From: Helicobacteraceae bacterium
GTDB taxonomy: Bacteria; Campylobacterota; Campylobacteria; Campylobacterales; Sulfurimonadaceae
DNA length: 40,915 nt
Direction of reading: 5' to 3'
Assembly: GCA_027066325.1 (NCBI GenBank)
Contig: JAMONY010000007.1
Coordinates: forward strand, 1-40,915
The notes under the pieces are model-generated. The model did not search any database. It saw only the letters and a list, made by a program, of their open reading frames with translations, and was not told where the DNA came from. The position numbers were made by a program, and so were the translations under genes. How positions within the stretch are numbered: the first letter of the stretch is position 1; the number at the start of each line of letters is the position of its first letter. Positions 5,140-11,257 of the stretch are shown here, piece by piece.

Positions 5140-5793
5140 ATGCTTGTAGCTCCTAGTATACTCTCTGCTGACTTTGGGAAGTTGGGTGATGAGGTTAGAG
5201 CCATCTGTGAGGCTGGTTGTGACGCTGTTCATGTAGATGTGATGGATGGGCATTTTGTGCCAAATATGACCATGGGACCTGTGGTAGTTAGTGCAGTTGC
5301 TGCTGCGGCTACCGCACCTCTTGATATACATCTTATGGTTGAGAACAACACTTTTTTTGTAGATCTTTTTGCACCCCTTAAACCACGATACATATCGTTT
5401 CACATAGAAGAGGAGAGGCATCCTCATAGATTAGCACAGTACATCAAGAGCAGAGGCATATCTCCAGCTATAGTGCTTAACCCTCACACACCACCACAAG
5501 CCATAGAGTTACTCTTGCCATATGTTGATATGGTGCTTGTTATGAGTGTCAATCCAGGCTTTGCTGCTCAGAGCTTTATAGATGTTTATGATAAGATTAA
5601 AGTGTTGAAGAGGATGATAGAAGAGGTAAATCCAGAATGTCTCATAGAGGTAGATGGCGGAGTAAATGATCAAAACATAGCCTCTTTGGCTAAAGTGGGT
5701 GTAGATATGTGTGTGGCAGGCAGTTTTGTTTTTAAGCATAAAGATGGCTACAGAAGCGCTATAGAGTCACTAAAGAGTGCTTGTGAGAGTTAA
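5140..5793 (+). CDS. rpe: ribulose-phosphate 3-epimerase
   Basis: Rpe interconverts ribulose 5-phosphate and xylulose 5-phosphate in the non-oxidative pentose phosphate pathway. The 217-residue TIM barrel shows the family signature from the N-terminus: APSILSADFG, the metal-binding HVDVMDGHFVPN, HLMVEN, the phosphate loop MSVNPGFAAQSF and EVDGGVN. ATG 5140 is chosen over the in-frame TTG at 5137 because MLVAPSILSADF is the usual start and AAAAGG is well spaced. It overlaps trpF by 11 bases. Transaldolase, which works in the same pathway, is encoded at 15 kb. Confidence 0.96.
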   Translation: MLVAPSILSADFGKLGDEVRAICEAGCDAVHVDVMDGHFVPNMTMGPVVVSAVAAAATAPLDIHLMVENNTFFVDLFAPLKPRYISFHIEEERHPHRLAQYIKSRGISPAIVLNPHTPPQAIELLLPYVDMVLVMSVNPGFAAQSFIDVYDKIKVLKRMIEEVNPECLIEVDGGVNDQNIASLAKVGVDMCVAGSFVFKHKDGYRSAIESLKSACES

Positions 5794-6373
5794 GATATGT
5801 GGTATAACTTCACTCAAAGATGCACTTAGCGCGGTTGAGAGTGGAGCAGATGCGTTGGGGTTTGTCTTTTATGAGAAGTCACCACGATATATAGATCCAG
5901 ATCTTGCTAAAGAGATAACAGATCTTCTACCACCATTTGTTCAAAGAGTAGGGCTATTTGTAGATGTTGATGCAGCTCACATAGATAGGGTGTGTAAGGA
6001 GTCTGGCATGACACTAGCACAGATCCATTTTGAAGCGTCTAAAGCTCTATACGATACTCTTAAAACACCATACCTTAGAGTAGTTCGTGCTAAGATAGCT
6101 AGTGATGTTGCAAGACATGCGGACTCATATAAGATCGTAGATGCCTATTGTGCAGAGTATGGTGGAGTTGGCAAGAGACTCAATCTTGACTGGTTTAAGG
6201 GTGTAGATTGCTCTAAGATTATCTTAGCAGGCGGGCTTGATCTAGACAATCTTAAAGAGGCAGCAGAGTTTGGTTTTTATGCGCTTGATGTTAGTAGTGG
6301 AGTAGAGATAGCAAAAGGTGTTAAAGATAGTGCTAAAGTGAAGAGTTTTATAAGTAGAGCAAAGGCGTGTTAG
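5783..6373 (+). CDS. trpF: phosphoribosylanthranilate isomerase
   Basis: TrpF performs the Amadori rearrangement of N-(5-phosphoribosyl)anthranilate in tryptophan biosynthesis. About 196 residues, a normal monofunctional size. Motifs: RVKICGIT at the start with the catalytic Cys, GADALGFVFYEKSPRYI, QRVGLFVD, LAGGLDLDNL and ALDVSSGVE with the conserved Asp and phosphate-binding loop. The GTG at 5783 gives the typical MRVKICGI start and lies inside the end of rpe; an in-frame GTG two codons earlier (5777) is the alternative. It is separated from the other trp genes, apart from trpS elsewhere in the window. It overlaps the exonuclease gene by 7 bases. Confidence 0.95.
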   Translation: MRVKICGITSLKDALSAVESGADALGFVFYEKSPRYIDPDLAKEITDLLPPFVQRVGLFVDVDAAHIDRVCKESGMTLAQIHFEASKALYDTLKTPYLRVVRAKIASDVARHADSYKIVDAYCAEYGGVGKRLNLDWFKGVDCSKIILAGGLDLDNLKEAAEFGFYALDVSSGVEIAKGVKDSAKVKSFISRAKAC

Positions 6374-8518: not shown

Positions 8519-8547
8519 TTGACTTATGTACCAGATGGTACTATAAT
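8519..8547 (+). promoter_or_regulatory. sigma70-type promoter of tetR with an operator filling the spacer
   Basis: TTGACT (8519-8524), a 17-base spacer and TATAAT (8542-8547) form a near-consensus promoter. The spacer ends in the palindrome GTACC-AGAT-GGTAC (8528-8541), which would block RNA polymerase when bound. The -10 ends 6 bases before ATG 8554, so the transcript is probably leaderless. The same palindrome recurs at 9164-9177, implying that the encoded TetR protein binds both and represses itself. Confidence 0.75.
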
Positions 8548-8553
8548 ACATCT

Positions 8554-9144
8554 ATGAAAAATAGCATAGGTAGACCAAGATCATTTAATGAGCAAGAGGT
8601 TCTTCAAAAGGCTATGGAGTATTTTTGGGAACATGGATATGATAGGTCTTCACTAAGCGTACTTCTAAATGCTATGGGTATTAAAAAAAGCAGTTTTTAT
8701 CAGACATTTCAGAGTAAAGAGCATCTATTTCGTCTCTGTTTAGAGCTATATACCAAGATGGGTAGTGAGTATCTGGCTACTTTGGTTGATGAGAAGGGAG
8801 AGAAGGGTGTTCTTCTCTATATTGTCTACTCAACCATGGAGGAGTTGCGCCATACAGGTAGAGCTAAAGGGTGTTTGCTGATGAACTCTGGAAGTGAGTG
8901 TTATATAAGTCATCCACACTTTAACGAGCTTATACACTATGAGTTTACAGTATTTCAGAAACTTTTTCGCAAACTGATAGATGAAGCTCAAAAAAAAGGT
9001 GATATAAAAAATCAGACTTCATCAAGAGTGCTCGGTAGTATCTATCAGAGTCTAATAAATGGGCTTGTTCAGATGATACAAGTTGGTGCTCAAACAGAGG
9101 AGCTAGAAGCTGTTGTAAAACACATAGAGGATCTTTTAGAGTAG
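8554..9144 (+). CDS. TetR/AcrR-family transcriptional repressor
   Basis: A 196-residue protein with the TetR N-terminal DNA-binding domain: GRPRSFNEQEVLQKAMEYF, then the helix-turn-helix through SSLSVLLNAMGIKKSSFYQTF (residues 27-48), followed by an all-helical ligand-binding domain. The region KGCLLMNSGSE resembles the AcrR/NemR-type subgroup that senses electrophiles or small organic compounds; two Cys (residues around 62 and 109) could be reactive, but this is inference. The gene starts 6 bases after a perfect -10 box overlapped by a palindrome, so autorepression is likely. Its probable target is the AhpD-like gene 101 bases downstream, which has the same palindrome. Confidence 0.9.
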   Translation: MKNSIGRPRSFNEQEVLQKAMEYFWEHGYDRSSLSVLLNAMGIKKSSFYQTFQSKEHLFRLCLELYTKMGSEYLATLVDEKGEKGVLLYIVYSTMEELRHTGRAKGCLLMNSGSECYISHPHFNELIHYEFTVFQKLFRKLIDEAQKKGDIKNQTSSRVLGSIYQSLINGLVQMIQVGAQTEELEAVVKHIEDLLE

Positions 9145-9163
9145 TTTTTTTATGTTTATTTTA

Positions 9164-9177
9164 GTACCGATTGGTAC
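9164..9177 (+). promoter_or_regulatory. second copy of the TetR-type operator
   Basis: GTACC-GATT-GGTAC, a palindrome with the same 5-bp arms and 4-bp spacer as that in the tetR promoter at 8528-8541. It lies 69 bases ahead of the AhpD-like gene. I see no clear -10/-35 pair around it. A nearly ideal but orphan Shine-Dalgarno AAAGGAGGT follows at 9180-9188 with no good start codon at the proper distance. Confidence 0.65.
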
Positions 9178-9245
9178 AGAAAGGAGGTTAATTTTAGTTC
9201 AAGGTGTGCAGAGGCACTAATAGATTTATTGTATGAAGGAATAAG

Positions 9246-9842
9246 ATGAAAATATTGAGAAAAGTAACATTGATAGCGGCTCTATCTTCAACTCTATTGG
9301 CTACAAGTGTGGCGCTAATTGAGACTGTATCGGTCAAGGACGCTACTGGTGATGTGGCAAAAGTTTACAGCGAGATGAATGCATCTTGGAAAATGGTACC
9401 AAATGCTATGAAGCTCTATTCGAACAATCCTGAGATATTAAGACATAAGTGGGACTCATTTAAGCTTAATGATAAATATGAGAGCATTGATGCTAAATTG
9501 CAATCTATGATTAGAATGCTAATCTCTGTAAATCATGAGTGCAACTACTGCATAGGTTTTAATGAAGGATTTTTGATCAATGTGCTTAAAGTTCCAGCAG
9601 CAGATGTGATGGCGATGAAGAAAGATCCATCTCTAGCTCCACTAAACAGAAAACAAAAAGCCCTCTTACTCTTTGTTTTAAAAGCTACTGAGAAGTCAAA
9701 AAGTGTAACATCAGCAGATATATCAGAGCTTAAAAAATTAGGCTGGAGTGATGCAGAGATATTTTTTGCAACCAACTATGCAGCCCAGATGGTAGCTAGT
9801 GATATACTTCTAAATGCCTTTAAGGTAGAGATAGACTATTAG
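9246..9842 (+). CDS. exported AhpD-like (carboxymuconolactone decarboxylase fold) protein
   Basis: A 198-residue protein with an N-terminal signal-like segment (KVTLIAALSSTLLATSVA) followed by an alkylhydroperoxidase D-like domain. The core HECNYCIGFNEG gives E98, C99 and C102, but the His normally four residues after the second Cys in AhpD (C-x2-C-x3-H) is Asn106. The CxxC suggests thiol-disulphide or peroxide chemistry; the signal suggests periplasmic location, unusual because most family members are cytoplasmic. An AAGGA site precedes ATG 9246. A TetR-type palindrome upstream matches the one controlling tetR, so it is probably derepressed by the same inducer. Its stop overlaps the convergent der stop by 3-4 bases. 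The substrate is unknown. Confidence 0.8.
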   Translation: MKILRKVTLIAALSSTLLATSVALIETVSVKDATGDVAKVYSEMNASWKMVPNAMKLYSNNPEILRHKWDSFKLNDKYESIDAKLQSMIRMLISVNHECNYCIGFNEGFLINVLKVPAADVMAMKKDPSLAPLNRKQKALLLFVLKATEKSKSVTSADISELKKLGWSDAEIFFATNYAAQMVASDILLNAFKVEIDY

Positions 9843-11257
9843 GTGTCTATCTCACCTCTCTTTTTGGCTTTGAAGAGAATAGGTGTTCCTTCAAAGTCAA
9901 ATGACTCTCTTAGCTGATTTGTTAAGTAGCGTCTATAGGTAAAGTGCAGACCTTTTGGTTTGTTCATAATGAGTGCTATCTGTGGAGGTCTTGTAGCGTA
10001 CTGAGTAGCGTAGTAGATGCGTATCATCTGCCCATTCATAGATGGCAGGTTGTGTTTGCGCATCGCAAATTTTAGTCTATCATTAAGCTTGGATGTTGTG
10101 ATACGCTGAGAGTAAGCACGGTTGACTTTATCTATGAGTTCAAAGAGTCTGTGTACTCTTTTATTTGTAAGCGCTGAGATGGTTATAAGTGGTGCATAGT
10201 GTAGAAATTTGAAACGGTGACGAATCTCATCTTCTATCTTTTTGTACTCACTTCTATCTACTAGGTCCCACTTGTTGAGCACAATAATACAAGCTAGTCT
10301 ATTGTCATCAATGAGACCAGCTATCTTCTCGTCTAGTTCGCGAAATGGCTCTGAAGCATCTAGTATAAGAAGTGCCATGTTAGATCTATCTAGCTGGATT
10401 TTTGTGCGATATAGAGCATACTTTTCAATACCCTCAATCTTGCCGCGTCGCCTAATCCCTGCCGTATCTATAAAAGTAATAGTACCATCGTTATGCTCTA
10501 TAGTCTCATCTATAGGGTCTATGGTAGTGCCAGCAACTGAGCTAACTACTGAACGCTCATGCCCTAGCAGAGCATTTAGAAGTGAGCTTTTACCAACATT
10601 GACGCGACCTATGATCGCTATATTGATATGATTGTCATCTTCAGTCTGTTCGCGCATATTGTCATTTTCATCAAAAATTGACTCATCTTCATCATCAAAA
10701 TTTTCTAAAAATAGGTCAAAATCACCACTATCTTCTTGAGTATTATCTATATCTGGTGTCTGAGGTGTAGAGTCAGGTAGTTTTGCTGCTATCCACTCAA
10801 GGAGTGGATTGATTGAGCGGTTGTGTGAGACTGAGATACCAAAGATATCTTTGGCACCAAACTCATAAAACTCCCACACTTTTGTTAGCATACCATCGTT
10901 GTCTATTTTGTTTATGACAAGAGCTACACTCTTGCCAAGCGATTCAAGCTCATAAAATATCCTCTTGTCTTCATCTTCTGGAATGCTTTTGCCATCAACC
11001 ATATAGATGATGATATCTGCCTCTTTAGCTGCTTTTAGTGACATCTGTCTCACTTTATCAAACAGCTCATTTCCAGCATCAAGTCCACCAGTATCGATCA
11101 GCTCTACCTCTTTATCTAAGATAGTAGCAGTTCTAAACTTGATATCTCTTGTTGTGCCTGAGACCTCTGAGGTGATGGCATCACGCTCTTTTAATAGACG
11201 GTTAAAAAATGAGCTTTTGCCGACATTTGGACGACCGATAATTGCTAGTTTTTTCAT
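9839..11257 (-). CDS. der: ribosome assembly GTPase Der (EngA)
   Basis: Der is the double-GTPase needed for 50S subunit maturation. The 472-residue protein has GTPase domain 1 (GRPNVGKSS at 8-16, DTGGLD, NKID), a long acidic linker, GTPase domain 2 (GRVNVGKSS near 217-225, DTAGIRRRGK, NKWD) and the C-terminal KH-like domain with GTPILFKAKKR near the end. ATG 11257 is chosen over the TTG one codon earlier, which makes the start KKLAIIGRPNVG typical. The ATG overlaps the hemJ TGA (TGATG), implying translational coupling. The linker (about residues 161-210) is strongly Asp/Glu rich. Confidence 0.97.
   Translation of the reverse strand: MKKLAIIGRPNVGKSSFFNRLLKERDAITSEVSGTTRDIKFRTATILDKEVELIDTGGLDAGNELFDKVRQMSLKAAKEADIIIYMVDGKSIPEDEDKRIFYELESLGKSVALVINKIDNDGMLTKVWEFYEFGAKDIFGISVSHNRSINPLLEWIAAKLPDSTPQTPDIDNTQEDSGDFDLFLENFDDEDESIFDENDNMREQTEDDNHINIAIIGRVNVGKSSLLNALLGHERSVVSSVAGTTIDPIDETIEHNDGTITFIDTAGIRRRGKIEGIEKYALYRTKIQLDRSNMALLILDASEPFRELDEKIAGLIDDNRLACIIVLNKWDLVDRSEYKKIEDEIRHRFKFLHYAPLITISALTNKRVHRLFELIDKVNRAYSQRITTSKLNDRLKFAMRKHNLPSMNGQMIRIYYATQYATRPPQIALIMNKPKGLHFTYRRYLTNQLRESFDFEGTPILFKAKKRGEIDT

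Follow-up and report, generated by a model that had tools for sequence, protein, structure and literature searches.

Background

The closest described counterparts of the system analysed here are autorepressing regulators of the TetR family. The AcuR operator of Rhodobacter sphaeroides, TAATAGAC-N6-GTCTATTA, overlaps the promoter of the acuR-acuI-dddL operon, in which the repressor gene comes first; operator mutations lead to constitutive expression, the acuR mRNA is leaderless, acrylate is the inducer, and genes of the AhpD family adjoin some acuR-like genes elsewhere (PMC3017554). NemR of Escherichia coli (nemRA-gloA) represses its own gene together with detoxification targets, with read-through to the downstream gene, and its Cys106 was reported to be sufficient for the response to HOCl (PMC3739934). 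AltR of Pantoea ananatis is a NemR-like, autorepressing TetR that is freed by thiol-reactive compounds through one key conserved cysteine and has inverted-repeat operators, CAATCTAC-N6-GTAGATTG, in its own promoter and inside its allicin-tolerance cluster, which includes ten other genes (PMC13178969). CssR, a TetR stress regulator that contains cysteines, has no redox activity (PMC8176726).

The window, that is, the whole stretch of 40,915 nucleotides of Helicobacteraceae DNA that was analysed, contains a tetR gene followed by an AhpD-like gene. An earlier note, made from the sequence alone, had proposed that the two genes share a palindromic operator. The system is best read as a thiol-switch autorepressor of the AcuR/NemR/CifR type whose release would be triggered by electrophiles or quinones and not by peroxide. 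A published account of this regulon was not found in a literature search, and such switches appear to be little described for this bacterial order in the literature searched.

Promoter, putative operators, and gene layout

The tetR gene (8554-9144, plus strand) encodes a putative repressor of 196 aa with TetR_N and TetR_C_13 domains and a putative thiol switch at Cys107. Its promoter (8519-8547, plus strand) consists of a -35 box, TTGACT, at 8519-8524, a 17-bp spacer, and a -10 box, TATAAT, at 8542-8547 that ends 6 nt ahead of the ATG; the match to consensus is 11/12, which agrees with the near-consensus promoter described in the earlier note. The palindrome GTACC-N4-GGTAC, which had been placed at 8528-8541 (GTACCAGATGGTAC) and 9164-9177 (GTACCGATTGGTAC), was located by motif scan at exactly these positions and nowhere else in the window. 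The number of matches expected from dinucleotide shuffles of the window was 0.01, and none of 100 shuffles contained two. Both palindromes could be extended outward by one base to WGTACC-N4-GGTACW. Putative operator 1 (TGTACCAGATGGTACT, 8527-8542) lies within the promoter spacer and touches the -10 box, and putative operator 2 (AGTACCGATTGGTACA, 9163-9178) is located between the genes, 19 bp past the stop codon of tetR and 83 bp ahead of the ATG of the ahpD-like gene. The latter gene (9246-9842, plus strand) encodes an all-helical CXXC protein of 198 aa with Cys99, Cys102, and a signal-peptide-like N-terminal segment, and terminator-like hairpins (9828-9857, plus strand) are present at its end, ahead of a convergent GTPase gene.

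Neither a terminator nor a recognisable sigma-70 promoter was found between tetR and the AhpD-like gene in the window, which leaves it uncertain what operator 2 does at this locus; in the simplest reading, transcripts from the tetR promoter extend into the AhpD-like gene and operator 2 serves as a second contact. A strong Shine-Dalgarno-like AGGAGG is present at 9182-9187, after the ahpD-side operator, with no gene start behind it; the ATG of the gene comes 55-70 nt later. The same arrangement was seen in L004 and L039 (G006), and in G006 the AGGAGG precedes ATG TAG.

Copies of the palindrome were also sought in the whole 1.69 Mb genome, where exact, one-mismatch, and degenerate copies were inspected. 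The earlier note had proposed such a scan and had regarded many unrelated copies as evidence against a shared operator; only three exact copies were obtained, the single additional one being within the obg coding sequence. There were 17 one-mismatch copies, and those examined were all within coding sequences, as were the other degenerate WGTACY-N4-RGTACW copies that were examined. No intergenic copy beyond the two sites was found among the exact, one-mismatch, and degenerate copies examined. A larger regulon in this genome was therefore rejected; barring highly degenerate operators elsewhere, the regulon would consist of these two sites.

Conservation across orthologous loci

Homologues were sought in 200 family-level, 399 order-level, and 298 phylum-level genomes and in one contig, and orthologous TetR proteins with 34-69% protein identity were identified. 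The palindrome WGTACY-N4-RGTACW or a close variant was present in the 17-18 bp spacer of the tetR promoter at every one of 22 non-redundant loci, and TATAAT-like -10 boxes ended 5-7 nt before the tetR ATG in all 22, so that the tetR message is predicted to be leaderless and to start at the AUG. Between tetR and the next gene, one or two more copies or variants (the variants being judged by eye) were present at 21 of the 22 loci; at L094, where the next gene encodes a nitroreductase, none was seen by eye. Perfect WGTACY-N4-RGTACW matches numbered 23, all of them beside tetR and distributed over 15 loci, whereas the flanks, 138,438 bp in total, contained 0. When the loci were anchored at the -10 box, between-locus identity was 0.53-0.90 over promoter and operator versus 0.26-0.41 upstream of the promoter, the drop to background occurring just upstream of the promoter. 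With both sites conserved in orthologous loci and no other intergenic copies in the genome, these comparisons strongly support the proposal that the two genes share an operator and form a regulon under its own control.

The gene that follows the operator differs among relatives, and the AhpD-like gene can be replaced by one for a short-chain dehydrogenase (SDR), a flavodoxin-fold reductase, or a nitroreductase; in L004, a zinc-type oxidoreductase gene is located upstream of tetR, and in L102 the operator comes ahead of two target genes in succession. Several relatives have, as judged by eye, a hairpin followed by T residues between tetR and the target and then two operators, which suggests a separate target promoter in those loci. 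The two operators before the target gene are often 62-73 bp apart (L082, L087, L088, L091, L099, L102, and L105); the spacing is mostly 62-65 bp, near six helical turns, and binding may be cooperative. In L089 (G183), the post-operator flavodoxin-fold reductase gene (5556-6073) seems to be disrupted by a shift of reading frame close to the start.

With AcuR, the locus shares a TetR repressor gene at the first position of the operon, oxidoreductase genes as neighbours, and a promoter-overlapping inverted repeat with equal half-site spacing (TAGAC-N6-GTCTA in AcuR, TGTAC-N6-GTACA at 8527-8542 here), a layout common to the 22 loci; a message that starts at AUG, as in AcuR, is predicted for it as well. 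Hybrid sites of the form TGTAC-N6-GTCTA were found in several relatives and join the AcuR-type and window-type operators. The differences are that the arm bases are unlike, that a second operator precedes the target here, that neither dddL nor acuI is beside tetR in the window, and that the window TetR scored 57.1 bits with the AcuR equivalog model NF051457, for which the curated cut-off is 247. By score, the window TetR is not an AcuR equivalog, and the system would be a further example of the known AcuR/NemR/CifR-type autorepressing TetR switches.

The TetR-family regulator and its candidate sensor cysteine

Membership of the window protein in the TetR family is indicated by a helix-turn-helix domain above the gathering score (PF00440, TetR_N; 37.2 bits, cut-off 24) and an all-helical C-terminal domain (PF16925, TetR_C_13; 35.3 bits, cut-off 27), and its model (pLDDT 90) matches TetR structures. 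Cys107 was invariant in 13 of 13 aligned divergent TetR proteins, and Cys116 was kept in 12 of the 13. In the alignment to solved structures, the Cys107 column is occupied by Cys in CifR of Pseudomonas aeruginosa (6nsn), by Ser in the CifR C107S mutant (6nsm), and by the GCL-motif cysteine of NemR (4yze), whose chain number is 108 and which equals NemR Cys106 assuming a two-residue tag. Among named regulators with a solved structure, CifR is nearest in sequence (E 4.9e-16; 27-28% in the fold alignment) and differs in controlling an epoxide hydrolase. NemR has the same TetR fold (TM 0.81), and its autorepression, detoxification targets, and read-through are predicted for the window system as well; it differs in its low identity (~18%), in its targets (NemA and GloA), and in other NemR-implicated cysteines that are not matched in the window TetR. 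AltR resembles the predicted window system in its single key cysteine and in having operators both in its own promoter and inside its cluster, and is different in operator sequence and in the genes controlled.

The alignment and the partner genes point to Cys107 as a putative thiol switch for electrophile, quinone, or related thiol stress. A GC cysteine may also be structural or may line the pocket of a non-covalent ligand. The earlier note had offered peroxide or electrophiles as inducers; the invariant Cys107 and the swapped partner genes favour a thiol or electrophile signal and make peroxide the less likely of the two.

The AhpD-like protein

The AhpD-like protein scored under the cut-off of the Pfam CMD family and reached 62 bits with TIGR01926, for which the cut-off is 81.8. 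Its model (pLDDT 88) has an AhpD-superfamily fold that matches 6k40, 2prr, and 3c1l, the top match being 6k40, an AhpD-like protein of D. radiodurans (TM 0.78); a D. radiodurans mutant without that protein is sensitive to H2O2 (PMC8945050). The all-helical AhpD fold and the CXXC motif, with Cys99 and Cys102 invariant among aligned relatives, are shared with AhpD and with the peroxidase-related family TIGR01926. Besides its sub-cut-off score, however, the window protein differs from both in its signal-peptide-like N-terminus and in having Ser87 and Asn106 where 3c1l has the AhpD motif Glu, located 12 residues ahead of the first Cys, and the motif His, located 4 residues past the second. All 12 aligned sequences lack Glu and His at these two columns. 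As a name, AhpD therefore refers to the fold and the CXXC motif rather than to an established peroxidase, and an AhpD annotation here need not mean a peroxidase. The AhpD-like protein, whose thiols had prompted the earlier note's guess at the inducer, lacks two AhpD motif residues and is not the best evidence for a thiol or electrophile signal.

The first 19 residues of the protein are disordered in the model and were judged by eye to be signal-peptide-like. This segment (9246-9310 in the window) has counterparts in a few relatives (L004, at 3847; L100; L101), and most AhpD-like relatives lack it, their sequence beginning directly with the AhpD domain. It would be unusual for a CXXC protein of this kind to be exported, as the putative signal peptide hints. 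It is a doubtful but conceivable suggestion that the exported protein is a new periplasmic enzyme for detoxification of quinones or electrophiles, e.g. a thiol-based reductase, controlled by a cytoplasmic sensor of the AcuR/NemR type that has had its operators and targets reshuffled across the bacterial order.

Proposed mechanism and alternative explanations

What the sequence shows directly is the two sites and their conservation, the geometry of the promoter, and the invariance of Cys107; DNA binding and repression, read-through, initiation at the AUG, the chemistry at the cysteine, and the type of inducer are inferred, and it is likely that they combine as follows. A TetR dimer would bind WGTACY-N4-RGTACW as a repressor. 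At operator 1 it would fill the spacer and touch the -10 box, blocking RNA polymerase at its own strong promoter, and at operator 2 it would further repress the AhpD-like gene, for which read-through transcription initiated at the tetR promoter is the probable main source of mRNA. Transcription of tetR itself probably begins at the AUG, and such a leaderless message would yield little repressor. A reactive electrophile or quinone-like compound would modify Cys107 in the ligand domain, the modified dimer would dissociate from its operators, and synthesis of the CXXC protein and of new repressor would follow until the chemical is removed. For a hitherto uncharacterised regulator, the analysis provides a clearly defined, conserved operator and regulon, and it predicts a leaderless autorepressor that senses through one specific cysteine. 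Because relatives exchange the partner gene while keeping the operator, the class of inducer becomes testable.

A different account retains the operator and autorepression and assumes an ordinary small-molecule ligand that is bound non-covalently and is degraded or carried by the AhpD-like protein. Non-covalent ligand binding is known for many TetR_C domains, acrylate is the inducer of AcuR, the nearest model in promoter layout, and CssR shows that cysteines in a TetR stress regulator need not be redox-active. Acrylate is itself an electrophile, however, and the retention of Cys107 (13/13) and Cys116 (12/13) in divergent relatives, the alignment of Cys107 with characterised reactive cysteines, and partner genes typical of electrophile or quinone stress argue for the thiol switch, so that an ordinary ligand is unlikely, with a small but appreciable chance of being correct. 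If instead the TetR sensed peroxides and the AhpD-like protein were an alkyl hydroperoxidase, the AhpD fold and the H2O2 sensitivity of the D. radiodurans mutant would be accounted for. The substitutions by Ser87 and Asn106, with neither motif residue in the 12 aligned relatives, and the related loci in which the same regulator and operator accompany SDR, flavodoxin-fold, or nitroreductase genes fit peroxide poorly, and a peroxide-responsive regulon is considered improbable.

It could also be supposed that the palindromes are not operators at all and represent chance occurrences, RNA hairpins, or recombination sites, since restriction-like words of the GGTACC type can recur and one-mismatch copies are present in coding sequences. 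Chance was ruled out by the shuffles and by phylogenetic footprinting, position and sequence being kept in distant relatives whose flanks are at background identity; an RNA element was rejected since no Rfam match was found in the window, and the motif is absent from TetR/AhpD modules with an unrelated regulator. A non-operator origin is accordingly given almost no weight, and the autorepressing thiol switch is the reading adopted.

Control module with an unrelated TetR

A second module, recovered by the same search from the same family of genomes, combines an AhpD-like gene with a TetR that is ~20% identical to the window TetR. The palindrome was absent from 18 of 18 loci of this module that were read, although these loci partly overlap and represent fewer than 18 separate modules. 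The motif thus follows the regulator, and its interpretation as a property of AhpD-like genes was rejected. In the second module, the unrelated TetR gene is divergent from the AhpD-like gene (L017, L009, L012, L013, L053, and others), and in L092 (G061) an isochorismatase-like gene comes after the second-module genes.
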